Under the pieces are notes generated by a model. The model did no database searches. It was not told the origin of the DNA and saw nothing but the letters and a program-made list of their open reading frames with translations. 64,000 bases of DNA from Sulfurospirillum sp. 1612 (GTDB taxonomy: Bacteria; Campylobacterota; Campylobacteria; Campylobacterales; Sulfurospirillaceae): the NCBI RefSeq assembly GCF_036556685.1, contig NZ_CP140614.1, positions 1,054,001-1,118,000 of the forward strand, in the 5' to 3' direction. Position numbers and translations under genes: made by a program. Positions 38,176 through 56,254 of the stretch are shown one piece after another; positions within the stretch are counted from its first letter, which is position 1, and each line of letters starts with the position of its first letter.

Positions 38176-39438
38176 ATGACACAAGAAACATTAGCATTGC
38201 ATTTTGGTTACGAAAAAGGGGATTTTGGTACGATGGCTGTGCCTCTTTATCAAACATCCGCTTATGATTTTGGCAATGCTCAAACCGCAGCAAACCGTTT
38301 TGCTTTAAAAGAACTCGGACCCATTTATACACGCCTAAACAATCCAACTACAGAAATTTTTGAAAAAAGAATAGCTGCAATCGAAGGGGGTGAAGCCGCC
38401 GTAGCCATTGCTAGCGGTCAAGCTGCTACATTTTTTGCGATTGCCAATCTGGCAGAAGCTGGTGACAATGTCATCTTGGCAGAGAAAGTTTATGGCGGTA
38501 CGACGACATTAATCACGCATACACTCAAACGATTTGGTATCAAAGCGAAAGTTTTTAATAGTGATACTGCTGATGATTTGGAAGCATTGATTGATGAGAA
38601 GACCAAAGCGATCTTTTTTGAATCTCTCTCAAATCCACAAATTGCTATTCCAAATATTGAGAAAATTGTCGCCATTGCTAATCAACACAATGTGGTTACC
38701 ATCTGTGATAATACCGTCGCAACACCGATTTTATTTCGTCCGTTTGATTATGGCGTCGATGTTATCATTCACAGTGCGAGCAAATACATCTCAGGACAAG
38801 GATTGAGTATCGGAGGTGTGGTTGTTGCACGAAATAATCTGAATGAAAAATTGATTAAAAATGTGCGTTATCCACAATTTAATGAGCCAGATGAGAGTTA
38901 TCATGGTTTGGTTTATGCAGATATTCCATTACCACTTTTTACACTTAGAATCGTGCTTTCGTTGATTCGTGATATTGGTGCTACCATCGCACCATTTAAC
39001 TCATGGTTATTAATCCAAGGACTTGAAACCTTGAGCGTGCGAGTCAAGCAACATTCTCGCAATACATTAGAAGTGGCCAGATTTTTAAAATCACATCCAA
39101 AAGTCAAAAACGTCAATTATCCAGGATTAGAGGGAGATGTACAACATGAGAAAGCCAAAAAATATTTTAAAGATGGCTTGACTTCTGGATTATTGAGTTT
39201 TGAAGTAGAAGGATTAGAATTTGCAAAAAGCATCTTAGATAATACCAAAATCTTCTCCGTTGTTGCCAATATCGGGGATACCAAATCTATCATTACCCAT
39301 CCTGCGAGCACCACGCACATGCAAGTGCCAGCAGATGAGTTGGAAAAAGCAGGCATTAGCCAAGGATTGATTCGATTAAGTATTGGATTAGAGAGTCCTG
39401 AGGATTTAATCGCTGATCTCAAACAGGCCATAGGATAA
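38176..39438 (+). CDS. metY: O-acetylhomoserine sulfhydrylase
   Basis: A 420-residue Cys/Met-metabolism PLP enzyme that makes homocysteine (or methionine with methanethiol) from O-acetylhomoserine and sulfide. N-terminal TLALHFGYEKGDFGTMAVPLYQTSAY is typical of this group. The PLP lysine lies in HSASKYISGQG near residue 208. Length (about 420-430) favours MetY over MetB/MetC (about 380-390). The operon with an Rrf2 regulator and cysK fits direct sulfide assimilation. Confidence 0.93.
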   Translation: MTQETLALHFGYEKGDFGTMAVPLYQTSAYDFGNAQTAANRFALKELGPIYTRLNNPTTEIFEKRIAAIEGGEAAVAIASGQAATFFAIANLAEAGDNVILAEKVYGGTTTLITHTLKRFGIKAKVFNSDTADDLEALIDEKTKAIFFESLSNPQIAIPNIEKIVAIANQHNVVTICDNTVATPILFRPFDYGVDVIIHSASKYISGQGLSIGGVVVARNNLNEKLIKNVRYPQFNEPDESYHGLVYADIPLPLFTLRIVLSLIRDIGATIAPFNSWLLIQGLETLSVRVKQHSRNTLEVARFLKSHPKVKNVNYPGLEGDVQHEKAKKYFKDGLTSGLLSFEVEGLEFAKSILDNTKIFSVVANIGDTKSIITHPASTTHMQVPADELEKAGISQGLIRLSIGLESPEDLIADLKQAIG

Positions 39439-39442
39439 TCTT

Positions 39443-39856
39443 ATGGCTCTTATTTCAAGCAAAGGGATGTATGGGCTCAGTGCTATGTATGAATTGTCGC
39501 TTATCGAATCAGACAAACCAACGCAAATCAAAGATATTTCAGAGCGCGCATCCGTCCCTCAAAATTATTTAGAACAACTCCTCGTCGTGCTCAAAAGGGC
39601 AGACTTGATTACTAGTGTCAGAGGTGCACACGGGGGTTATTTTTTAGCACGCAGTGCGAGTGATATCATGATAAAAGATATCTTAATTGCCCTTGAGGGT
39701 AATCTCAGTGTTGTGGATTCGGATATTCAAAATCCTGTTTTAAAAATGTTTTATGATGAGAGTAACAAAAAGCTTGAAGATATTTTTAATATTCCTCTTT
39801 CAAAACTCGGCGAATACGAAGAGATTCTAAGAGGACAAATACATTATGTTATATAA
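39443..39856 (+). CDS. Rrf2-family regulator without cysteines (CymR-like)
   Basis: A 137-residue winged-helix protein. It starts MALISSKGMYGLSAMYELS, and the wing is TSVRGAHGGYFLARSASDI. It has no cysteine at all, so it cannot bind an Fe-S cluster in the IscR manner. This matches the CymR branch, which controls cysteine metabolism and in Firmicutes senses the state of CysK by forming a complex with it. Its position between metY and cysK, five bases after metY, strongly supports sulfur control. The perfect inverted repeat at 38138-38172 is a candidate operator. Confidence 0.85.
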   Translation: MALISSKGMYGLSAMYELSLIESDKPTQIKDISERASVPQNYLEQLLVVLKRADLITSVRGAHGGYFLARSASDIMIKDILIALEGNLSVVDSDIQNPVLKMFYDESNKKLEDIFNIPLSKLGEYEEILRGQIHYVI

Positions 39857-39867
39857 AGGAAATACTC

Positions 39868-40788
39868 ATGAATTATGCACAAAATGTCACCGAATTAATC
39901 GGTAACACCCCTTTAGTAAAATTAGGTCAAATCTCACAAAAAAGTGGTGCGACGATACTAGGAAAATGTGAATTTCTCAATCCAACTCACTCAGTTAAAG
40001 ACCGTATCGCTTACAATATGATAAAAACCGCATTGGATGAGAAGCGCATCAGTAAAGATTCTATTATTATTGAACCCACAAGTGGCAACACCGGTATAGG
40101 GTTGGCTTCTGTGTGCGCCAGCTTTGGCTTGAAACTCATCTTGACGATGCCAAGTTCCATGAGTTTGGAACGACGGAAACTACTCGCCGCACTTGGTGCA
40201 GAATTAGTCTTGACTGAGCCAAAATTTGGGATGCAAGGAGCCATCGATAAAGCGCAAGAGATTGCACAATCTACTCCAAATTCATTTATCCCACAACAAT
40301 TTGCCAATGAAGCCAATCCTGCCATCCATGCAAAAACCACTGCAGAAGAAATTTGGCGTGATACTGATGGAAAAGTCGATATCTTTATCGCAGCAGTAGG
40401 TACCGGTGGTACTCTTACTGGTGTCGGACAAGCATTGAAAAAGAAAAATCCGAATATCAAAGTATATGCAGTCGAACCGGATGTCTCAGCGGTACTCTCA
40501 GGTGAGAAAGCCGGTCCTCACAAAATACAAGGAATCGGTGCAGGATTTGTCCCTAAAGTGCTTGATACCAAAATTTATGATGGCGTTATCAAAGCCAGTT
40601 ATGAAGATTCAGTGTCCGCTTCTCGAGCCGTAGCAAAAGAAGAGGGATTATTGGTAGGTATTAGTGCCGGAGCCAATATTTTTGTCTCACAAGAACTTGC
40701 ATCTTTACCTGAAAATAAAGACAAAATAATCGTGACAATCCTTTGTGATACGGGGGAACGATATTTGAGTTCTGGACTCTATGAATAA
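39868..40788 (+). CDS. cysK: Cysteine synthase A (O-acetylserine sulfhydrylase)
   Basis: A 306-residue PLP enzyme forming cysteine from O-acetylserine and sulfide. The PLP lysine is in NPTHSVKDRIAYNMI near residue 41, the substrate loop is TSGNTGIGLA near 70 and the phosphate-binding loop is VGTGGTLTGVG near 175. It is last in the operon and followed by a hairpin terminator. With a CymR-like regulator in the operon, CysK may also be the sensing partner. Confidence 0.95.
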   Translation: MNYAQNVTELIGNTPLVKLGQISQKSGATILGKCEFLNPTHSVKDRIAYNMIKTALDEKRISKDSIIIEPTSGNTGIGLASVCASFGLKLILTMPSSMSLERRKLLAALGAELVLTEPKFGMQGAIDKAQEIAQSTPNSFIPQQFANEANPAIHAKTTAEEIWRDTDGKVDIFIAAVGTGGTLTGVGQALKKKNPNIKVYAVEPDVSAVLSGEKAGPHKIQGIGAGFVPKVLDTKIYDGVIKASYEDSVSASRAVAKEEGLLVGISAGANIFVSQELASLPENKDKIIVTILCDTGERYLSSGLYE

Positions 40789-40812
40789 TTAAAATAAACT
40801 AAAAACTACAAC

Positions 40813-40845
40813 AATCGGCTTGCATATTAAGTTTTCAAGCCGATT
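40813..40845 (+). terminator. Terminator after cysK
   Basis: AATCGGCTTG (40813-40822) pairs with CAAGCCGATT (40836-40845) as a 10-bp stem with a 13-base loop. A T/C-rich stretch (TTCTCTCTC) follows. Confidence 0.8.
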
Positions 40846-41116
40846 TTCTCTCTCATTGCGTTACAAATTTACACAGGTTTTATGACTATCATGATGCTCA
40901 TTTATTGTATGAAAGTCTGTAGATTTAGCCGCAAACCCTTGTAATATAGTGCTAATTGTTCACATAGCAAATTATTAATAATGATTATAAAATTAAATTT
41001 AAGATTAAATAATTATTTAATTGTCACAACTATTTTAAAATTAAGTATCTTCGTACTATATTTTATACAGTGTCAAATGACATATTTTTGACATATCAAT
41101 ATAAAAAGGAGAATCA
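40846..41116 (+). promoter_or_regulatory. Upstream region of the sulfide dehydrogenase-like operon
   Basis: The gene-free stretch from the cysK stop to 41116 is about 330 bases, including the terminator. The part after it is AT-rich with no coding frame or RNA gene seen. TGTCAAATGACA at 41071-41082 is a perfect TGTCA/TGACA palindrome. TTGACATATCAA at 41088-41099 is a second near-palindrome sharing the TGACA core. These tandem sites lie 20-50 bases before the FccB-like start, with AAAGGAG as ribosome site. They look like a regulator site; the promoter boxes could not be fixed. Confidence 0.45.
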
Positions 41117-42454
41117 ATGAATAGACGTGATGCATTAAAATTGGCTGGGGCAACTGTTGCAGCGGCTAGTGTTTCGGGTTATGCTTCAGATACCACCAAT
41201 GTATTATCTGATGTCAAAGTTGTCGGGTCTGCTGCGACGCTTCCAAAAAATGGAGCCGGTGCACGAATCGTGATTGTCGGGGGTGGATGGTCTGGATTGT
41301 CTGTGGCAAAAAGGTTGAAGCAGTATGTCCCTGATAGTGATGTTGTTTTGGTAGAACAAAGGACGACGTTTATCTCGTGTCCGATTAGTAACCTTTGGTT
41401 GGTCGGTGGTGTTACATTAGAGTTTTTGACGCATAGTTTCTTGGATGCTGCCAATAACAACGGCTATACTTATTTTAATGCAACAGTGTTTGATATTGAC
41501 AGAAAAGAGCGTAAAGTCTATACCAATGAAGGGCATATCGGTTATGATTATCTCGTCTTGGCACCGGGCATTGATTATGATTACTCTCAATGGACAAAAG
41601 GTGACAGTGCCCTTGAATACGAACTGCGCACCAAATATCCAGCTGGATATAAAAATCACAGTGAACATGCCACTATCAAAGAAAAGATTGAAAACTTTGA
41701 AGAAGGCAATTTTATTTTGACTGTGCCAGGCGGTAATTATCGTTGTTTGCCTGCTCCTTATGAGCGTGCATGTCTGATTGCTGATTATATGAAAAAAAAT
41801 GAGATTGAAGGCACAGTGATTTTGATGGATGAAAATCCAGATATTACCATCAAGAAAAAGGGTTTTCATTCTGCTTTCAATGAAATGTATAAAGATTATA
41901 TAGAGTATATGCCCGATACCAAAATCGAAACATTTGATTTGAAAAATAAAAAAGTGACGACGGAATTTGGCGATGAAATTGAGTTTGCCGATGCCTCTTT
42001 TTATCCACGCGTAAGAGGAAGTAAACTCTTAGAAATCGCAGGCGTTGCAAAAGATGCTATCAATAAAGGCGAAGCCCATATTGACCCATTTACCTATCAA
42101 GTGATTGGTGACCCGCATGTCTTTTGTTCGGGTGATGTTAGACCGATGGCTTTTAGTAAATCGGGTAATACCTCTAATTCAGAAGGTCATATCGTTGCGC
42201 GTAGTATTAGTGATCGTATCTTGGGTAAAAAATATGTCTGGAAATCTCCTCATACGACCTGTTACTCTGCTGTGGCACTTGATCCAATGCGTGCGATTTT
42301 CGTAAATGCGGATTATAAATGGAGCGATTCCAACAAATCGTTTGCATTTTTTCATGCCTCAACGATGGAAGATTGGCACGGTAAAAGTGGCACCAATGCA
42401 GGTAAAGGCTTGATTGAGTGGGGCAGTGGCATGTATCGAGACATGTTCGCTTAG
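41117..42454 (+). CDS. FccB/SoxF-like sulfide dehydrogenase flavoprotein, Tat-exported
   Basis: A 445-residue periplasmic flavoprotein. The N-terminus MNRRDALKLAGATVAAA is a twin-arginine signal. The FAD-binding fold starts RIVIVGGGWSGLSVAKRL near residue 51. Features of the flavocytochrome c sulfide dehydrogenase family are present: FISCPISN, C210 in YRCLPAPYERA, the second FAD motif FCSGDVRPM, and C382 in HTTCYSAVALDP. The two cysteines match the redox-active pair that attacks sulfide. Instead of a standard FccA diheme partner, a Rieske protein and a monohaem cytochrome follow, so the electron path is unusual. Confidence 0.85.
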   Translation: MNRRDALKLAGATVAAASVSGYASDTTNVLSDVKVVGSAATLPKNGAGARIVIVGGGWSGLSVAKRLKQYVPDSDVVLVEQRTTFISCPISNLWLVGGVTLEFLTHSFLDAANNNGYTYFNATVFDIDRKERKVYTNEGHIGYDYLVLAPGIDYDYSQWTKGDSALEYELRTKYPAGYKNHSEHATIKEKIENFEEGNFILTVPGGNYRCLPAPYERACLIADYMKKNEIEGTVILMDENPDITIKKKGFHSAFNEMYKDYIEYMPDTKIETFDLKNKKVTTEFGDEIEFADASFYPRVRGSKLLEIAGVAKDAINKGEAHIDPFTYQVIGDPHVFCSGDVRPMAFSKSGNTSNSEGHIVARSISDRILGKKYVWKSPHTTCYSAVALDPMRAIFVNADYKWSDSNKSFAFFHASTMEDWHGKSGTNAGKGLIEWGSGMYRDMFA

Positions 42455-42509
42455 AAAAATACGACCATAGTCTCAGAAGCTATGGTCACAAATTATTGAT
42501 GGATTTTAT

Positions 42510-43235
42510 ATGGATAGAAGAAATTTTTTAAAAATTTTGAGTGCTACAACAGTGGTCGCCATCAATCCTGCGCTGATTTCACAGAAACTCTATGCAGATG
42601 ATGGATCGATGTACCAAACGTATGAAAAAGTGCTCTTAGTGGGTGATGATGGCAAACCGATTTTGGCATCATCTTTGAAAAAGGAGACCAACTATATCTT
42701 TATGTATCCCTATAAGGGTACGCCTGTGTTACTCGTGGATTTAGGGGTTCCAACTCACAAAAATGTGAAGTTGCATGCCGAAGATGGCACGGAATATCTC
42801 TTTAAAGGTGGTGTGGGTAAAAAGGGCTCTATCGTCGCAGTTTCGGCAATCTGTCAGCATCAATTGACGCACCCAAAGCCAAGTGATAGTTTTCTAAACT
42901 ATCTCCCAAGAGGTGCTAAAACAGCAGCTTATCCACATGGCGGAGTCTTTGTTTGTTCTTCTCATTTGAGTGTTTTTGACCCAATGGATGGTGGCAAAAA
43001 TGTGGCAGGACCAGCAGCACAGGGATTAGCAGATATTGTATTGGATGTGGATGATAAGGATCAGATTTGGGCGGTTGGTGTGTTGGGACCAGATCGCTTT
43101 CATGATTATTTTAAAGCATTTAAACCTGAATTCAAGCAGATTTACGGCAATTGGAGAAAAGCGAAGAAAATCGTCAAAATCCATGCTCCGGTGACGTTGC
43201 TGAGTGAATATTCAAAAGACATTATAGAGTACTAA
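42510..43235 (+). CDS. Tat-exported Rieske-type [2Fe-2S] protein
   Basis: A 241-residue protein with a twin-arginine signal (MDRRNFLKILSATTVVA). It carries a Rieske ligand set: C115-x-H117 in ICQHQLTH and C149-x2-H152 in FVCSSHLSVFDP, 31 residues apart. The extra disulfide cysteines of bc1-complex Rieske proteins are missing from both loops, which usually goes with a lower potential. The protein lacks a membrane anchor beyond the signal. It lies 55 bases after the flavoprotein and 9 bases before a cytochrome c, which suggests a relay between them. Confidence 0.8.
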   Translation: MDRRNFLKILSATTVVAINPALISQKLYADDGSMYQTYEKVLLVGDDGKPILASSLKKETNYIFMYPYKGTPVLLVDLGVPTHKNVKLHAEDGTEYLFKGGVGKKGSIVAVSAICQHQLTHPKPSDSFLNYLPRGAKTAAYPHGGVFVCSSHLSVFDPMDGGKNVAGPAAQGLADIVLDVDDKDQIWAVGVLGPDRFHDYFKAFKPEFKQIYGNWRKAKKIVKIHAPVTLLSEYSKDIIEY

Positions 43236-43244
43236 AGGAAAAAA

Positions 43245-43649
43245 ATGAAACCAATACTTTTATGTTTATCACTCGCATGCTCTTTGTCGCTTTTTGGTGC
43301 TAATTACACCAAAGTTCAAAGGCTTGATGATATGCACAAGATGGCCTCAGGTATGGAGATGATTCAAAAAGGTTTTTTGTATCGCTGTCCTGATGGGAGT
43401 TGTTTCAAAGAAGGTGCAGATAAAATTCTCACAGTAGTCAAGACATTAGAAACCCAAGAAGTCAAAGATTTCTTGCCCGCACATCAAAAATATGCCTACA
43501 AATTTGGAGAGAAATCTGCCAAGATGATTGCGCTTTATGCCAATGATCTGAAAGAGTCGATTGATCATAAAAATCAAGCCGATGCGCTAGAAGATTATAA
43601 TCAAATGCTGAGACAATGTGCCTCTTGTCATCTACGTTTGAGACAATAA
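43245..43649 (+). CDS. Periplasmic monohaem cytochrome c, C-terminal haem
   Basis: A 134-residue exported cytochrome. The signal peptide covers about residues 1-19. The only haem site is CASCH at 125-129, at the extreme C-terminus, with a helical body before it. This is the c'/c-556 type four-helix layout rather than class I. Two further cysteines (YRCPDGSCFKEG, residues about 48-54) could form a disulfide. It ends the flavoprotein-Rieske-cytochrome operon and is the likely electron exit. Confidence 0.8.
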   Translation: MKPILLCLSLACSLSLFGANYTKVQRLDDMHKMASGMEMIQKGFLYRCPDGSCFKEGADKILTVVKTLETQEVKDFLPAHQKYAYKFGEKSAKMIALYANDLKESIDHKNQADALEDYNQMLRQCASCHLRLRQ

Positions 43650-43675: not shown

Positions 43676-43714
43676 TTTCGCTCCCTATAATTTTAAAAAT
43701 ATAAGGGAGCGAAA
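43676..43714 (+). promoter_or_regulatory. Hairpin covering the ribosome site of the PAP2 gene
   Basis: TTTCGCTCCC (43676-43685) pairs perfectly with GGGAGCGAAA (43705-43714), and inner TATA/TATA arms extend it with one bulge. The right arm holds the AAGGGAG ribosome site, six bases before the ATG at 43716. It may end transcription of the cytochrome operon and also restrict translation of the next gene. Confidence 0.6.
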
Positions 43715-48885: not shown

Positions 48886-51546
48886 ATGAGTATTATGGCA
48901 ATTGAAAACAACTTAAATACGCTCATCTCACACTTTACTCAAGAGCGCTTTATCTTTGATCTACTTTTGGCTTATGAGACCCCAAAATCAACCATCAAAC
49001 GCCTTCGAGGAAGTGATCATGATAATCTAGTCTCACGTGGTGAGTTAATGGTGCGAAAAAAACTATTTTTTAAAGTCAAAGAGGCATCTTTGCATGCCAC
49101 GATAGATGAAATCAAAACATCTAAAGAAGTCATAAAACATCATCCCCGGTTTATCATCGTAACTGATTATGAAACACTTCTTGCTTATGATACAAAAACA
49201 GAGGATACCCTCGATATAGAGTTGCTAAATATCCCCAATCATTATGATTTTTTTCTCCCACTTGCCGGCATGGAAAAGGCTACCTATCAAGATGAAAATC
49301 CTGCTGATGTCAAAGCCTCCATCAAGATGGCACGTCTTTATGAGGAACTCCAAAAAAACAATCATTTTGAAACAGAAGAAGATATCCATGCACTCAATGT
49401 ATTTTTGACGCGTCTTTTGTTTTGCTATTTTGCAGAAGATACGAATATCTTCGAGGATAATCTTTTTACTGCATCTCTCTCCTCTCATACACAGCTCGAT
49501 GGAGGTGACCTTGATAGCTATCTTCAGAGACTTTTTGGCATGTTTAATACCCCAGAGAAAAAAAGAGACCCAAGTACACCAGCGTATCTGAATAAATTTC
49601 CCTATGTAAATGGTGGACTTTTTGCCAGATCACTGAAGCTGCCCATCTTCACGACGCGCTCTCGTGCTCTCATGATAGAGATAGGCCAGCTCCAATGGTC
49701 GCAGATAAATCCAGATATATTTGGTAGTATGATCCAAGCGGTGGTCACACCTGAACATCGTGGTGGCATGGGGATGCACTACACAAGCGTGCCAAATATC
49801 ATGAAAGTGATCGAGCCACTTTTTTTAGATGAATTCTACAAAGAGTTAGAAAAAAGCTTTGATAGTAAAACAAAACTACAAAAACTACTGAAAAGACTAA
49901 GCATGATCAAGATATTTGATCCAGCTTGTGGAAGTGGGAACTTTCTCATCATAGCTTACAAAAAGCTGCGTGAACTTGAGATGAGCATACTAAAACGTAT
50001 GGATGAGTTGAGTAAGGAGCTGACTTTTGTATTTAGTGAGATAAAACTAACACAGTTTTACGGCATAGAGCTAGATGACTTCGCCCATGAAGTCGCAATG
50101 CTCTCCCTTTGGCTTGCAGAACATCAAATGAACCTAGAGTTTTACAAAGCCTTTGGCAGAACAAGTCCAGCCCTGCCACTGCACGATGGTGGAAATATAG
50201 TCCATGGAAATGCCACTAGAATAGACTGGGAAGAGGTTTGCCCAAAAGTAGATGGTGATGAGATCTATATACTTGGGAATCCGCCTTATTTGGGTACTAG
50301 AAATCAAGAAAAAGAGCATAAAGAAGATATGGCTTTTGTATTTAAAGGTATTAAAAATTATAAGAATTTAGATTATATTGCTTGTTGGTTTTATAAAGGT
50401 GCTAATTATATAAAAGGAATTAACTCTAAATATGCTTTTGTTTCTACAAACTCAGTAACACAAGGAGACCAAGTAGCATTACTTTGGTCAAATATTTTTG
50501 ATAAAGAACTAGAAATTAATTTTGCATATCATTCTTTTAAATGGCAGAATAATGCAAAAAATAATGCTGGAGTAACAGTTGTAATTATTGGTATTGCAAA
50601 TATAAATACAGAATTAAAAAAGTTATATACAAATAATTTGATAAAAAGTGTTAAAGAAATAAATGGTTATTTGATAGCAGCTCCTAAAGTTTTTATAAAT
50701 AGAAGAAATAAACCTTTGTTAAATATTCCCAAAATGTCCTATGGTAATTATACTGGTGGCTGTAATGAACTATTATTATCTCCAAGTGAAAAAAATGCTA
50801 TTTTATTAGAAAATAAAAATGCAAGTAAATTTATAAGAAAATTAAGTGGTTCTGCAGAATTTATACAAAATAAAGAACGGTATTGTTTATGGATTAGTAA
50901 TGCAGATTTAGATGAGGCTTTGAAAATTCAAAATATACAAAAGAGAATTGAAAGTGTTAAACAAAATAGGTTATCAAGTAAAGATGAAGCATTGCAAAAA
51001 CTTGCAACTAGACCACATCAATTCCGTGATATTAAAGAAGCTAAAAAGTCCTCTATAATTGTACCTATAGTCTCATCTGAAAGAAGGAAATATATTCCAA
51101 TGGGTTTTTTAGATAAGGAGTATATTATTCCAAATTCAGCACAGGCTATTTACGATGCAGAACCTTGGATTTTTGGTTTTATTTCATCTTATATGCATAA
51201 TATTTGGGTAAAAGCAGTTGGTGGAAGTTTAGAAACACGTATTAGATATTCATCTGTACTTTGTTACAACACTTTCCCATTTCCAAATATATCTGAAAAA
51301 CAAAAAGAAGAGATAACAGAACTAGTATATGGTGTACTAGATGAAAGAGAACAACACTCAGAAAAAACCCTAGCCGAGCTTTACGATCCAAACAAAATGC
51401 CACAAGGACTAAAACAAGCCCACCACGCCCTAGACCTAGCCATAGAAAAATGCTACCGAACCAAACCATTTGAAAATGATGAAGAAAGACTAGAATACCT
51501 TTTTAAAATGTATAAAGAGATGACCGCGAAGGAGAAAGAAAAATGA
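48886..51546 (+). CDS. MmeI/YeeA-type N6-adenine DNA methyltransferase
   Basis: An 886-residue methyltransferase of the large type IIG/YeeA kind. The N-terminal region (about 1-150) has the SAM-independent pattern RFIIVTDYETLLAYDTKTED seen in MmeI-like proteins. A helical spacer (about 150-310) precedes motif I FDPACGSGNFLIIAY near 344 and the catalytic ILGNPPYLGTRN near 463. The target-recognition region and C-terminal helix follow. I do not see a clear D...ExK nuclease motif in the first 100 residues, so restriction may come from another gene. DNA from about 50330 to 51330 is far lower in GC than either side. AAGG precedes ATG 48886. Confidence 0.85.
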   Translation: MSIMAIENNLNTLISHFTQERFIFDLLLAYETPKSTIKRLRGSDHDNLVSRGELMVRKKLFFKVKEASLHATIDEIKTSKEVIKHHPRFIIVTDYETLLAYDTKTEDTLDIELLNIPNHYDFFLPLAGMEKATYQDENPADVKASIKMARLYEELQKNNHFETEEDIHALNVFLTRLLFCYFAEDTNIFEDNLFTASLSSHTQLDGGDLDSYLQRLFGMFNTPEKKRDPSTPAYLNKFPYVNGGLFARSLKLPIFTTRSRALMIEIGQLQWSQINPDIFGSMIQAVVTPEHRGGMGMHYTSVPNIMKVIEPLFLDEFYKELEKSFDSKTKLQKLLKRLSMIKIFDPACGSGNFLIIAYKKLRELEMSILKRMDELSKELTFVFSEIKLTQFYGIELDDFAHEVAMLSLWLAEHQMNLEFYKAFGRTSPALPLHDGGNIVHGNATRIDWEEVCPKVDGDEIYILGNPPYLGTRNQEKEHKEDMAFVFKGIKNYKNLDYIACWFYKGANYIKGINSKYAFVSTNSVTQGDQVALLWSNIFDKELEINFAYHSFKWQNNAKNNAGVTVVIIGIANINTELKKLYTNNLIKSVKEINGYLIAAPKVFINRRNKPLLNIPKMSYGNYTGGCNELLLSPSEKNAILLENKNASKFIRKLSGSAEFIQNKERYCLWISNADLDEALKIQNIQKRIESVKQNRLSSKDEALQKLATRPHQFRDIKEAKKSSIIVPIVSSERRKYIPMGFLDKEYIIPNSAQAIYDAEPWIFGFISSYMHNIWVKAVGGSLETRIRYSSVLCYNTFPFPNISEKQKEEITELVYGVLDEREQHSEKTLAELYDPNKMPQGLKQAHHALDLAIEKCYRTKPFENDEERLEYLFKMYKEMTAKEKEK

Positions 51547-52763
51547 GTGATTTTATAGATGAGTATAGGTTGATAGATAGAATACAAGATAGCAATATAA
51601 ATTTTTTATTTGGTTCTGGCATGTCAGCAGGTTATCTTGAAATATTGGGAAATATTGAGCAACTACTTACAGATTTAAATAATGATGAAACTATTGAAAA
51701 TGAAAATCAAAGGGAGTTAATAAGGGCATCAATCTTAAATAAATATTTTGAAGGCGTAATTGAAAAAAATTTAAATATTTTAGATTATTCACATTTAGAA
51801 CCTGAAGAAATTTTATCAATACAATGGACACTAGAGAGTTATATAAACTTTTTTAAGACTATAAATCAATTGATCTTATCTAGAAGGAATAAACTCTTAA
51901 GTAAACAAGTGAATATTTTTACTACAAATATAGATATTTTTCTTGAGCGTGCTATTGAACAAATTGGATTAGAGAGTAATGATGGTTTTGGAAAAGGTTT
52001 TAAGCCAAAATATGATTTGAGTAATTTTAAAAAATCCATCTTTCAAAAAAGCCTCCATTTTGATAATAGTTCAGAAATACCAATATTTAATATTTTAAAA
52101 ATACATGGCTCTTTAACTTGGAAAAGTGAAGATAAAAATATATATTTTGATAGTTCATTACAGGGAATTCAAAAAGTACAAAAAGTAAAAAGAAGATCTT
52201 TGATAGATGTTGATACATCAAAAGATAACCTAACTAGTTTAAAAGCAAAATTGCCTAAAAGAATTCATGAAAGCAATTTTAGTAGGTTCTTAGAAGAATA
52301 CAATCAACTTGCTATTGTAAACCCTACAAAAGGAAAATTTCAACAAACTGTGTTAGATCAAAAGTATTATGATCTTCTTAGAATTTATGCAAATGAGCTT
52401 GAAAAAGAAAATACTTTACTTTTTGTAATGGGCTTTTCTTTTGCTGATGAACATATAAGAGATTTAACGATAAGAGTTGCTGATTCAAACCCTACTTTGA
52501 TGATTTATATTTTTGCATTTGATAAAAAATCTCGAAGACGCTTGAACTGTATACTAGGACTTTATAAAGATAAAATAAAAAATAATAATATAAAAATAAT
52601 ATCGCCTAATAGAATTAAAGAAGAAGATAAATACAAGGATGAATTTCAATATACATTTGATCAAATTAATGAAAGGGTTTTCAAAAAAATACTAGAAAAG
52701 ATTTCAAAACCTATGACTAAAAAAATATTTAAAGCTACACTTGAAGGCTTTGGAAATGAATAA
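51543..52763 (+). CDS. SIR2-like NAD(P)/nucleotide hydrolase of a SIR2-HerA pair
   Basis: A 406-residue protein with a SIR2-like fold. Family motifs are NFLFGSGMSAG near 19-29, VNIFTTNIDIFLERA near 121-135 (catalytic Asn) and ILKIHGSLTW near 184-193 (catalytic His). The C-terminus has FVMGFSFADEHIRDLTIRVA, usual in defence SIR2 proteins. Such proteins degrade NAD and similar nucleotides after phage infection. It overlaps the methyltransferase by 4 bases and the HerA gene by 8, so it is translated with both. Base composition is clearly AT-richer than the chromosome around it. Confidence 0.88.
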   Translation: MSDFIDEYRLIDRIQDSNINFLFGSGMSAGYLEILGNIEQLLTDLNNDETIENENQRELIRASILNKYFEGVIEKNLNILDYSHLEPEEILSIQWTLESYINFFKTINQLILSRRNKLLSKQVNIFTTNIDIFLERAIEQIGLESNDGFGKGFKPKYDLSNFKKSIFQKSLHFDNSSEIPIFNILKIHGSLTWKSEDKNIYFDSSLQGIQKVQKVKRRSLIDVDTSKDNLTSLKAKLPKRIHESNFSRFLEEYNQLAIVNPTKGKFQQTVLDQKYYDLLRIYANELEKENTLLFVMGFSFADEHIRDLTIRVADSNPTLMIYIFAFDKKSRRRLNCILGLYKDKIKNNNIKIISPNRIKEEDKYKDEFQYTFDQINERVFKKILEKISKPMTKKIFKATLEGFGNE

Positions 52764-54612
52764 TCAACAAGTTTTAGATGATTCAATTTTTAAAATTGGT
52801 GAAGTGCTATCAGTCGATGGTAGAAAAGTAAAAATCAAAGTTGATAAAACTAAAAATAGCTCACATATTATGTATAAAGGTGAACTACTTAAAAATACTT
52901 CTGTTGGAAGTTATGTAAAAATTATCAAAGGTTACACTAAAATAATTGGAAAAGTCGAAGGTGAATTTGTTGAAGAGGATAAAAACTATAGTCCAAAAGA
53001 GTATACAGCTGAAGCAAATAAAATAAATAGAAATCTTATTGTAAGTATGTTGGGTTTTTTTGATGGGGAAAGATTCAAAAGAGGAATAAAAGAGCTACCT
53101 TTAGTATTTAATGAATGTTTTTTACTTGATAACCAAGAGTTTGAACAAGTCCATGATTTTATAGAAAAAGATGATGAACCACTTGAAATTGGTGTTTTAT
53201 CACTTGAAAAAGGTCAAAAAATTCAAATAGGTGTAAATAGTCTATTTGCTAGTCATATTGGTATTTTTGGAAACACAGGAAGTGGTAAATCATATACATT
53301 GGCAAAGCTTTATAATGTTTTTTTTGATAAATATATACAAAATCAAAAATTTTTGAAGCAAGCTAAATTTTATTTATTTGATTTTAATGGAGAGTATTTG
53401 GATAGCAAAAAGTCTAAAGAAGATTCAGTAATTGTAGATATAAAATATAAGAATGTATATAATTTATCAACAAGAAATGGAGAAGGTAATAAATTTCCAG
53501 TACTTGAAAAAGAGATTTATGATATCAATTTTTGGTCAATTTTTTTATCTGCTACGGAAAAAACACAAACTCCTTTTTTAAAAAGAGCTATTGAAAATGA
53601 CTTTTATGCAAACAAATTTAATAGTAAAGAAACGATAGTTGATGCTATTAAAGATTTAATAAAATTAATGATCGAAAAGCATATTGAAAAAGGTGATATT
53701 TTATCTTTTTTAAGAGATATAGAAAAAGCAATAAATAAGAAACTTAGTAATCTAAATGATATTATTACTTATTTTCAACAGAAACTACATTGGCATGGGA
53801 ATGGAAATGATAATTTTTTTGTTTATACAACAAGTGGTAAAATTTATGAAGATAAACAATCATTTTATCCAGAATTATTTCAAATGTTTTCAAATACACA
53901 ATTTATTAATTTGAGTGATTTTGAGAAAATTAGATTACAAATTATTTTTCAATACTATGATGAATTAGTAAAGTATGATTTGAATTCTGAACATATATCC
54001 CCACTTCTTAAAAGACTTAAAAAAATAGAAGATATTGATAAAGTTTTAAAAATTGACAATACAACTAGTACAAAAAATATCAATGTGATTTCTTTAAAAA
54101 ATGTAAATACTGAAATGAAAAAAATATTGCCACTTCTAATTTGTAAACAAATATATGATCAACAAAAACAATTACAAAATAAATCAAGCTATCTAAATAT
54201 CATTGTTGATGAAGCACATAATGTTTTATCTCACAATTCAAATAGGGAAAGTGAAACTTGGAAAGATTATAGGCTAGAAACTTTTGAAGAGATCATAAAA
54301 GAGGGTAGAAAATTTGGTGTATTTTTGACAATTGCTAGTCAAAGACCATCAGATATTTCTAGCACTATTATCTCACAATTACATAATTATTTTTTACATA
54401 GACTTATAAATAATAAAGATATTGAAGCGGTAGAAAAAACTATCTCATATCTTGACAAAGTCTCTTTTGAAGCCTTGCCAATTTTACCAACTGGAAGTTG
54501 CATATTTGCAGGACTTGCTGCACAAGTTCCTGTTATGGTAGATATTGGAAAAATCAATGACGGGCATGAACCTAAAAGTGATACTATTAAGTTAACTAAG
54601 AATTGGAAGTAA
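52756..54612 (+). CDS. HerA-type hexameric ATPase of a SIR2-HerA pair
   Basis: A 618-residue HerA/FtsK-like ATPase. A small N-terminal beta-barrel (about 10-75, VDGRKVKIKVDKT) is the HAS-barrel. Walker A IGIFGNTGSGKSYTLAK lies near 168-184, Walker B YLNIIVDEAHNVL near 478-490, and the arginine-rich end FGVFLTIASQRPSDISSTI near 512-530. HerA forms a hexamer that assembles with SIR2 effectors into a large antiphage complex. ATG 52756 overlaps the SIR2 stop; a TTG at 52741 in frame is less likely. Confidence 0.88.
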   Translation: MNNQQVLDDSIFKIGEVLSVDGRKVKIKVDKTKNSSHIMYKGELLKNTSVGSYVKIIKGYTKIIGKVEGEFVEEDKNYSPKEYTAEANKINRNLIVSMLGFFDGERFKRGIKELPLVFNECFLLDNQEFEQVHDFIEKDDEPLEIGVLSLEKGQKIQIGVNSLFASHIGIFGNTGSGKSYTLAKLYNVFFDKYIQNQKFLKQAKFYLFDFNGEYLDSKKSKEDSVIVDIKYKNVYNLSTRNGEGNKFPVLEKEIYDINFWSIFLSATEKTQTPFLKRAIENDFYANKFNSKETIVDAIKDLIKLMIEKHIEKGDILSFLRDIEKAINKKLSNLNDIITYFQQKLHWHGNGNDNFFVYTTSGKIYEDKQSFYPELFQMFSNTQFINLSDFEKIRLQIIFQYYDELVKYDLNSEHISPLLKRLKKIEDIDKVLKIDNTTSTKNINVISLKNVNTEMKKILPLLICKQIYDQQKQLQNKSSYLNIIVDEAHNVLSHNSNRESETWKDYRLETFEEIIKEGRKFGVFLTIASQRPSDISSTIISQLHNYFLHRLINNKDIEAVEKTISYLDKVSFEALPILPTGSCIFAGLAAQVPVMVDIGKINDGHEPKSDTIKLTKNWK

Positions 54613-54615
54613 ATC

Positions 54616-55104
54616 ATGCAAAAAATAGCCAACCTAAACATCTATGTAGGCACAAAAGAAGAATACCACATAGCGATTAGTCAAAATATGAAAATCGTGT
54701 GTGCACTCAATCGTGCAAATGGTTTTGTGACACATCAGTCTCAAGTCGGGTGGACAGGTAGAGGTTGCAATAAAGATAACCCTTATTATCTTTATAAAGA
54801 GGAAGAGGATGCTATTTATCTAAATATGTTTGATGGGGAAGATCCTATCTATGTAAATGACAAAATGATAGATGCCGCCTTGAGCTTTATGAAACGGCAT
54901 TTGGATAATGATGAAACAATCTTTGTGCATTGTAGCTTAGGGGAATCTCGAAGTCCTTCTATCTCACTTATGTATATGTTAGAACACAACCTTATAGATG
55001 TGACAGACGATGCTTTGAGAGTATTTAGAGATAAGGTTTATGGAAACTACCAGCCTAAAAGAGGCAATGCGGAGTATATTATTAAAAGATGGTTGAGTAA
55101 GTGA
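54616..55104 (+). CDS. Dual-specificity phosphatase-like protein
   Basis: A 162-residue protein with the cysteine-phosphatase signature FVHCSLGESRSPSISLMYML, where C-x5-R lies near 106-112. The general acid region could be the aspartates of NMFDGEDPIYVND. This is the compact eukaryotic-like DSP fold. It starts four bases after herA and ends 13 bases before fic, so it belongs to the island operon. Its substrate could be a phosphoprotein, a nucleotide or RNA 5' end; nothing decides this. Confidence 0.8.
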   Translation: MQKIANLNIYVGTKEEYHIAISQNMKIVCALNRANGFVTHQSQVGWTGRGCNKDNPYYLYKEEEDAIYLNMFDGEDPIYVNDKMIDAALSFMKRHLDNDETIFVHCSLGESRSPSISLMYMLEHNLIDVTDDALRVFRDKVYGNYQPKRGNAEYIIKRWLSK

Positions 55105-55117
55105 AAAAGGAGCAAGA

Positions 55118-56254
55118 ATGAACATAAAAGATTTTAAATCAGGAACACTTAGACAAGAGTATCAATATAAAAGTTTTATGCCTGAAAAGATAAACCATAC
55201 ATTTACTTGGGATGATCCACAAATCAATACTATGTTGGAAAATGCTACAAGAGCATTAGGTGAGCTAAATGCTTTTACTATGATAGTTCCAAATGTAGAT
55301 ATTTTCATACAGATGCACATCACCAAAGAAGCAAACACTTCAAGTAAGATTGAGGGTACAAAAACAGAGATGGATGAAGTACTTATCGCGAAAAATCAAA
55401 TAGATCCAGAAAAAAGAGATGATTGGCAAGAAGTGCGAAACTATATTGATGCCATGAACAGCGCAATAAAAGAGCTTGAAACGCTGCCTATCTCAAATCG
55501 CCTTATCAAAAATATTCATGCAATACTGCTAAATAGTGTAAGAGGTGAAGCAAAACAACCAGGGGAGTTTAGAAAATCTCAAAACTGGATAGGTGGAGCG
55601 AGTTTAAGTACAGCTTATTTTATCCCTCCACATCATAATGAGGTGGGCGAGCTTATGAGTGATTTAGAGATGTTTCTACATAATGAAGAGATATTTGTAC
55701 CACATCTTATTAAAATTGCTATTGCCCACTATCAGTTTGAAACCATTCACCCATTCTTAGATGGTAATGGAAGAATCGGAAGGCTTTTGATAACGCTTTA
55801 TTTAGTAAGTAATGGATTACTTAAAAAACCATCTTTATACTTATCTGATTTTATAGAAAAAAATAAATCAGTTTATTATGAAGCATTGACAAGAGTACGA
55901 ACAGATAATGATTTGATTCATTGGATAAAGTTTTTTCTTGAAGCTGTTATATCTACTGCTAATAGTGGAGTAAGAACTTTTCAAAATATTTTGAGTTTGA
56001 AACAAGAGATGGATACCATAATAGTAGGATTTGGTAAAAAAGCACATAATGCAAGTAAACTTATAGAGTTTTTGTATCAAAAGCCTATAATATCGATTAA
56101 CGATATTATAAAACCATTAAATGTAAGTAAACCTACGGCAAACTCTTTGGTTAAAGAGTTTGAGGGAAAAGGGATATTGAAAGAGATTACAGGATACGAA
56201 CGAAATAAGCTTTTTGTATTCAATAGATATTTAAATATTTATAGTCAAAGTTAA
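55118..56254 (+). CDS. Fic-domain protein, class II (N-terminal inhibitory motif)
   Basis: A 378-residue Fic protein. The N-terminal helix carries the inhibitory motif S-S-K-I-E-G near residues 76-81. The Fic domain has the active site ETIHPFLDGNGRIGRLL near 208-224 with catalytic histidine and full ATP-binding loop. A C-terminal winged helix (about 310-365, ISINDIIKPLNVSKPTANSLV) may bind DNA. Fic enzymes attach AMP or other nucleotides to protein hydroxyls; this layout (Fic/DOC_N plus HTH) is common and self-regulated. The last 21 bases of the gene are part of a 40-bp tandem repeat. Confidence 0.9.
   Translation: MNIKDFKSGTLRQEYQYKSFMPEKINHTFTWDDPQINTMLENATRALGELNAFTMIVPNVDIFIQMHITKEANTSSKIEGTKTEMDEVLIAKNQIDPEKRDDWQEVRNYIDAMNSAIKELETLPISNRLIKNIHAILLNSVRGEAKQPGEFRKSQNWIGGASLSTAYFIPPHHNEVGELMSDLEMFLHNEEIFVPHLIKIAIAHYQFETIHPFLDGNGRIGRLLITLYLVSNGLLKKPSLYLSDFIEKNKSVYYEALTRVRTDNDLIHWIKFFLEAVISTANSGVRTFQNILSLKQEMDTIIVGFGKKAHNASKLIEFLYQKPIISINDIIKPLNVSKPTANSLVKEFEGKGILKEITGYERNKLFVFNRYLNIYSQS

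Follow-up and report, generated by a model that had tools for sequence, protein, structure and literature searches.

Which protein takes up the electrons of an FCSD-type flavoprotein that has no FccA cytochrome beside it? The question is raised by three genes of Sulfurospirillum sp. 1612, which we analysed within a window of 64,000 nucleotides (contig NZ_CP140614.1, positions 1,054,001 to 1,118,000). An FCSD-type flavoprotein resembling FccB and SoxF (positions 41117..42454 of the window, 445 residues), a Tat-exported Rieske [2Fe-2S] protein (42510..43235, 241 residues), and a small exported mono-haem cytochrome (43245..43649, 134 residues) are all encoded on the plus strand, with gaps of 55 bases between the first two genes and 9 bases between the last two.

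Properties of the three proteins

Comparison of the window flavoprotein with Pfam gave 84.8 bits for PF21706 (FCSD_central, cut-off 27) and a weak match to PF09242, under its cut-off. Its nearest solved relatives, 1fcd, 5n1t, and 3vrd, are all FCSD flavoproteins. Alignment to the A. vinosum protein equates C210 with C161, C382 with C337, and C88 with C42, the covalent carrier of FAD. The FCSD_central match, the redox cysteine pair, and the covalent-FAD cysteine place the protein among the FCSD flavoproteins (FccB). C210, C382, E216, and W435 are invariant in 45 trio flavoproteins and C88 is kept in 39, the remaining six (loci L009, L056, L057, L063, L069, and L073) having glycine at this position, which suggests that their FAD is bound non-covalently. 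The Tat-type start MNRRDALK can be read directly, with a score of 16.6 bits for the NCBIfam Tat model (cut-off 16.7). Sulfide:quinone reductase (SQR) was rejected as the identity of the flavoprotein, the best PDB matches being FCSD and those to SQR far weaker. A neighbouring SQR-like protein of Sulfurimonas, used as query against the genome of Sulfurospirillum sp. 1612, returned weak matches only, a result that says nothing firm on other SQR types. Within 1066-10644 of contig L009, a second Tat-exported flavoprotein gene is found on the opposite strand, ~5.5 kb from a complete trio.

The Rieske protein begins with a Tat motif, MDRRNFLK, and its cluster ligands, C115-x-H117 and C149-x2-H152, are invariant in all 45 homologues. 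Cysteine is found in none of these homologues at positions 120 and 151, those of the disulfide. Ser154 is present in 41 of them, and position 156 is occupied by Phe in 22 and by Tyr in 23. The sequence-only reading had described an FccB-like flavoprotein with redox cysteines C210 and C382 and a Tat signal, next to a Tat-exported Rieske protein devoid of disulfide cysteines, and both descriptions are borne out. The window copy has no match in Pfam, and one homologue passes PF00355 (20.6 bits, cut-off 20.3). In NCBIfam, the window protein is distantly related to AioB and SoxL2, both under cut-off. SoxL2 was rejected with 81.2 bits for TIGR03171 against a cut-off of 582.1, and the arsenite oxidase small subunit AioB with 60.1 bits for TIGR02694 against 95.65 and no Mo subunit nearby; a Rieske protein of the bc1/b6f type was rejected in view of the missing disulfide cysteines and of the absence of cytochrome b nearby. 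The AlphaFold model (pLDDT 91) matches AioB across the Rieske domain, with target TM values up to 0.81. AioB is a Rieske protein placed between a periplasmic oxidase and cytochrome c, and among the fold matches is 8ed4, a solved complex of this oxidase with its cytochrome. Plasmid matches to the trio Rieske are mostly AioB. Past the Rieske domain, a C-terminal tail of ~48 residues is conserved, and we suggest, as a conjecture, that it may dock the flavoprotein.

The small cytochrome starts with what resembles a signal peptide and has a single CxxCH motif (CASCH) right at the C-terminus. An additional cysteine pair, C48/C53, is seen in this form in the window copy and at L008 and L061. Pfam and NCBIfam gave no family match, and the profile of the cytochrome family matches c-prime weakly (E 0.5). 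The predicted structure is a four-helix bundle (pLDDT 86), for which Foldseek ranks cb562 and c-prime first with TM ~0.6 and a probability near 1 at E above 0.1. The protein had been called a small c'-like cytochrome: the CASCH cytochrome itself stands, and its likeness to c-prime is one of predicted fold, not of sequence family. At L050, a second cytochrome of this family (L050:968-1375) adjoins an HlyD-like gene.

Relation to described enzymes

The trio flavoprotein resembles that of A. vinosum FccAB (1fcd) in its fold, redox cysteine pair, covalent-FAD cysteine, and C-terminal tryptophan. It differs in its neighbours, a Rieske protein and a four-helix cytochrome standing in the place of FccA; as no class I cytochrome (mono- or di-haem FccA) adjoins the window flavoprotein, membership in heterodimeric FccAB was rejected. 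SoxF of Paracoccus and Chlorobaculum is also an FCSD-type flavoprotein, and its link to sox genes is shared by some of the trio loci; SoxF is monomeric, however, and we know of no Rieske partner for it. AioB, the nearest solved fold to the trio Rieske, relays electrons to cytochrome c, and the NT-26 protein likewise lacks the disulfide. The trio Rieske is longer, however, with a C-terminal tail of its own, and is partnered with a flavoprotein instead of a Mo enzyme.

Tamazawa et al. (2012) described a gene cluster of an uncultured member of the Aquificota, the large sausage-shaped bacterium of Nakabusa, in which two FCSD-type flavoprotein genes flank a Rieske gene, accompanied by cytochrome-like genes and then by soxXYZAB (PMC3504083). 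One of the products, recombinant DhsU1, is a monomeric flavoprotein that catalyses the sulfide-dependent reduction of horse-heart cytochrome c with a Km of 16.5-16.7 uM, and the Rieske protein of the cluster was assigned no role (PMC3504083). Compared by published description, the DhsU cluster resembles the trio in having a flavoprotein beside Rieske, cytochrome-like, and sox genes, and contains a proven sulfide dehydrogenase; it differs in its two flavoprotein genes around the Rieske gene and in soxXYZAB downstream. For the Campylobacterota, FCSD-type flavoproteins were proposed for sulfide oxidation in Sulfurimonas pluma, as a non-canonical fcc (PMC10066037), and in Thiomicrolovo, whose two Fcc types cluster with Aquificales (PMC12403661); the main texts of these two papers make no mention of a Rieske partner. 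A full-text search of the open-licence literature returned no description of the Campylobacterota trio and no role given to its Rieske protein. The claim that the trio is not a described enzyme thus holds for the Campylobacterota but has to be narrowed in view of the similar Aquificota cluster of 2012 and its active flavoprotein (PMC3504083).

A flavoprotein gene adjoins the trio Rieske gene at every locus

Using a Rieske profile threshold of E < 1e-80, we found the trio Rieske in 39 of 397 Campylobacterota genomes, at 40 loci. Seven more genomes match the profile at ~1e-5 to 1e-4 over ~60 residues; these were treated as other Rieske proteins, and the tally of 16 genera with profile matches includes them. 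A flavoprotein gene neighbours the Rieske gene at all 40 loci, close by and on the same strand at 39 of them and on the other strand at L085, which excludes chance neighbours. The gene order differs among loci: L061 reads Rieske-cytochrome-flavoprotein-soxYZ and L080 begins with Rieske. The cytochrome gene is present at 27 loci and missing from 13, a few of which are contig ends. The neighbourhood search that had been proposed as a check therefore finds the trio conserved elsewhere, with the flavoprotein and the Rieske protein as its core and the cytochrome as an accessory. The wider cytochrome family occurs in 115 of the 397 genomes, and the cytochrome was not retained as a defining part of the module.

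FCSD-type flavoproteins (E < 1e-30) are more widespread: 87 of the 397 genomes encode them, among these every one of the 39 that have the Rieske protein. The other 48 lack it, and DhsU1 reduces cytochrome c on its own, so the Rieske protein is not mechanistically obligatory. The trio flavoprotein could accordingly reduce a soluble cytochrome c directly, the co-transcribed Rieske protein having another job such as redox sensing or the service of another donor. Besides the activity of DhsU1, this is favoured by close relatives of the window flavoprotein, 75-80% identical, that have no Rieske gene at their locus (L005 and L007); the genome of L007 (G310), whose flavoprotein is 75% identical, has no trio Rieske at all. 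We nonetheless consider direct reduction quite unlikely, since the adjacency at 40 of 40 loci and the re-pairing of the Rieske protein with another lineage of flavoproteins speak for a functional tie that is direct.

The two lineages of trio flavoproteins are ~31% identical to each other and are both paired with one Rieske family, which supports the Rieske protein as the constant partner in a sulfide dehydrogenase. Mapping the flavoprotein lineages on the Rieske tree requires 6 changes; well-supported branches force no fewer than 3 of these. Partners have thus been exchanged at least three times, the Rieske protein being the constant member and the flavoprotein the replaceable one. The 9 changes counted in the flavoprotein tree overstate losses, because some of its apparent orphans (L006, L010, L012, and L014) are contig ends.

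Sox genes and the substrate

At 11 of the 40 loci, the window not among them, soxY and soxZ are found within the trio operon, which ties the module to sulfur oxidation. Their products pass the Pfam cut-offs; at its C-terminus, SoxY has GGC or SGC with one or a few residues after it (GGCG, GGCS, or SGCS), the cysteine being intact. The genome of Sulfurospirillum sp. 1612 itself has a soxCDXYZAB cluster ~1 Mb from the trio, named from gene order, sequence, and haem motifs and, for SoxY only, from Pfam. Orphan flavoprotein paralogues, without a Rieske gene, often lie in or near soxCDYZ clusters (L119, L132, and L138).

These observations speak for a SoxF-like helper of the Sox system, in which the flavoprotein would oxidise or reactivate SoxYZ-bound sulfur (a persulfide or mixed disulfide) instead of free sulfide, the Rieske protein and the cytochrome serving as the electron exit. 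On the other hand, SoxY is absent from 7 of the 39 trio genomes, each 97-100% complete, the window trio is remote from its sox cluster, and free sulfide is the substrate of DhsU1 (PMC3504083). As those seven genomes show that SoxYZ cannot be a requirement, free sulfide is the simplest substrate, and we regard the helper function as rather unlikely.

Proposed electron path

Taken together, the locus is best read as a periplasmic sulfide dehydrogenase module with a path from FAD through [2Fe-2S] to haem, to which we give a probability of about 0.58. Besides the conserved residues, the constant adjacency, and the partner exchanges, this reading is supported by soxYZ inside 11 operons, by the sox cluster of the genome itself, by the AioB-like fold of the Rieske protein, and by the proven sulfide:cytochrome c oxidoreductase activity of an Aquificota flavoprotein encoded beside Rieske and sox genes (PMC3504083). 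The flavoprotein, with its FAD and C210-C382 redox disulfide, would oxidise sulfide to sulfane or zero-valent sulfur and pass the electrons singly to the Tat-exported Rieske cluster, which would take the place of the bound FccA cytochrome. The Rieske protein would hand them to the small cytochrome of c-prime fold where present, or else to another periplasmic cytochrome c, and from there they could reach a terminal oxidase or other acceptors. In operons that bear soxYZ, SoxY may receive the sulfane product. We infer sulfide as the substrate of the Campylobacterota trio from the homologous enzymes, and the Rieske protein as the immediate acceptor from gene linkage; the order of the path and any sulfur transfer to SoxY are likewise putative. 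Such a FAD/[2Fe-2S]/haem chain had been put forward from the window alone: the trio is conserved, and this chain is the most economical reading, with the cytochrome as an accessory. Most likely, this Rieske-relay wiring is kept across many sulfur-oxidising Campylobacterota and differs from that of the textbook enzyme.

A stronger version, which we put forward tentatively as a possibility still more doubtful than probable, sees the module as a class of sulfide dehydrogenase in its own right: the Rieske protein would be the constant electron-accepting subunit, the flavoproteins would be interchangeable, and the systems with soxYZ in the operon would load sulfide sulfur directly onto SoxY, as a sulfide entry into the Sox cycle. 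Sulfur reduction is a trait of many Campylobacterota, and the module could also run in reverse, drawing electrons from periplasmic cytochromes to reduce polysulfide or sulfur. The potentials of Rieske centres and c-type cytochromes are, however, normally far more positive than that of the S0/sulfide couple, and no quinone-linked subunit recurs at the trio loci, making reverse operation highly improbable.

Many sulfidic vents and sediments are dominated by Campylobacterota, whose FCSD genes are annotated in papers from the flavoprotein only. Should the Rieske protein be the true partner in the proposed dehydrogenase, a widespread sulfide oxidase has had its electron path misdrawn, enzymes assayed as monomers have lacked their acceptor, and a cultivable genus offers the means to test an iron-sulfur relay between flavin and haem.

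Genomic context of the window locus

A plus-strand leader of 328 bases (40789..41116), in which a ribosome site, AAAAGGAG, can be read directly, precedes the flavoprotein gene. Transcription of the trio probably starts from a separate promoter; promoter and terminator scans at the window trio gave no signal above shuffles. Directly upstream, metY, an Rrf2 regulator, and cysK (38176-40788) form a run conserved in the family. Rrf2 proteins are able to sense sulfur or redox state, and regulation of the trio by this one is conceivable. Four genomes of the family, including one from the same genus, keep the metY-rrf2-cysK run but have no trio after it, and the window flavoprotein was not found in other sampled genomes of the family. 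The trio was likely gained by transfer from another Campylobacterota family, loss elsewhere being the alternative.

Between the cytochrome and PAP2 genes, an inverted repeat, CGCTCCCT...AGGGAGCG (43679-43711), has an AT-rich loop and is without a T run; it was not scored as a terminator. Farther along the window, a run resembling a defence island (48886-56254) holds a type IIG restriction-modification enzyme (1019 bits in PADLOC), a SIR2 and HerA pair (202 and 587 bits, respectively), a dual-specificity-phosphatase-like gene, and a SoFic-type Fic protein.
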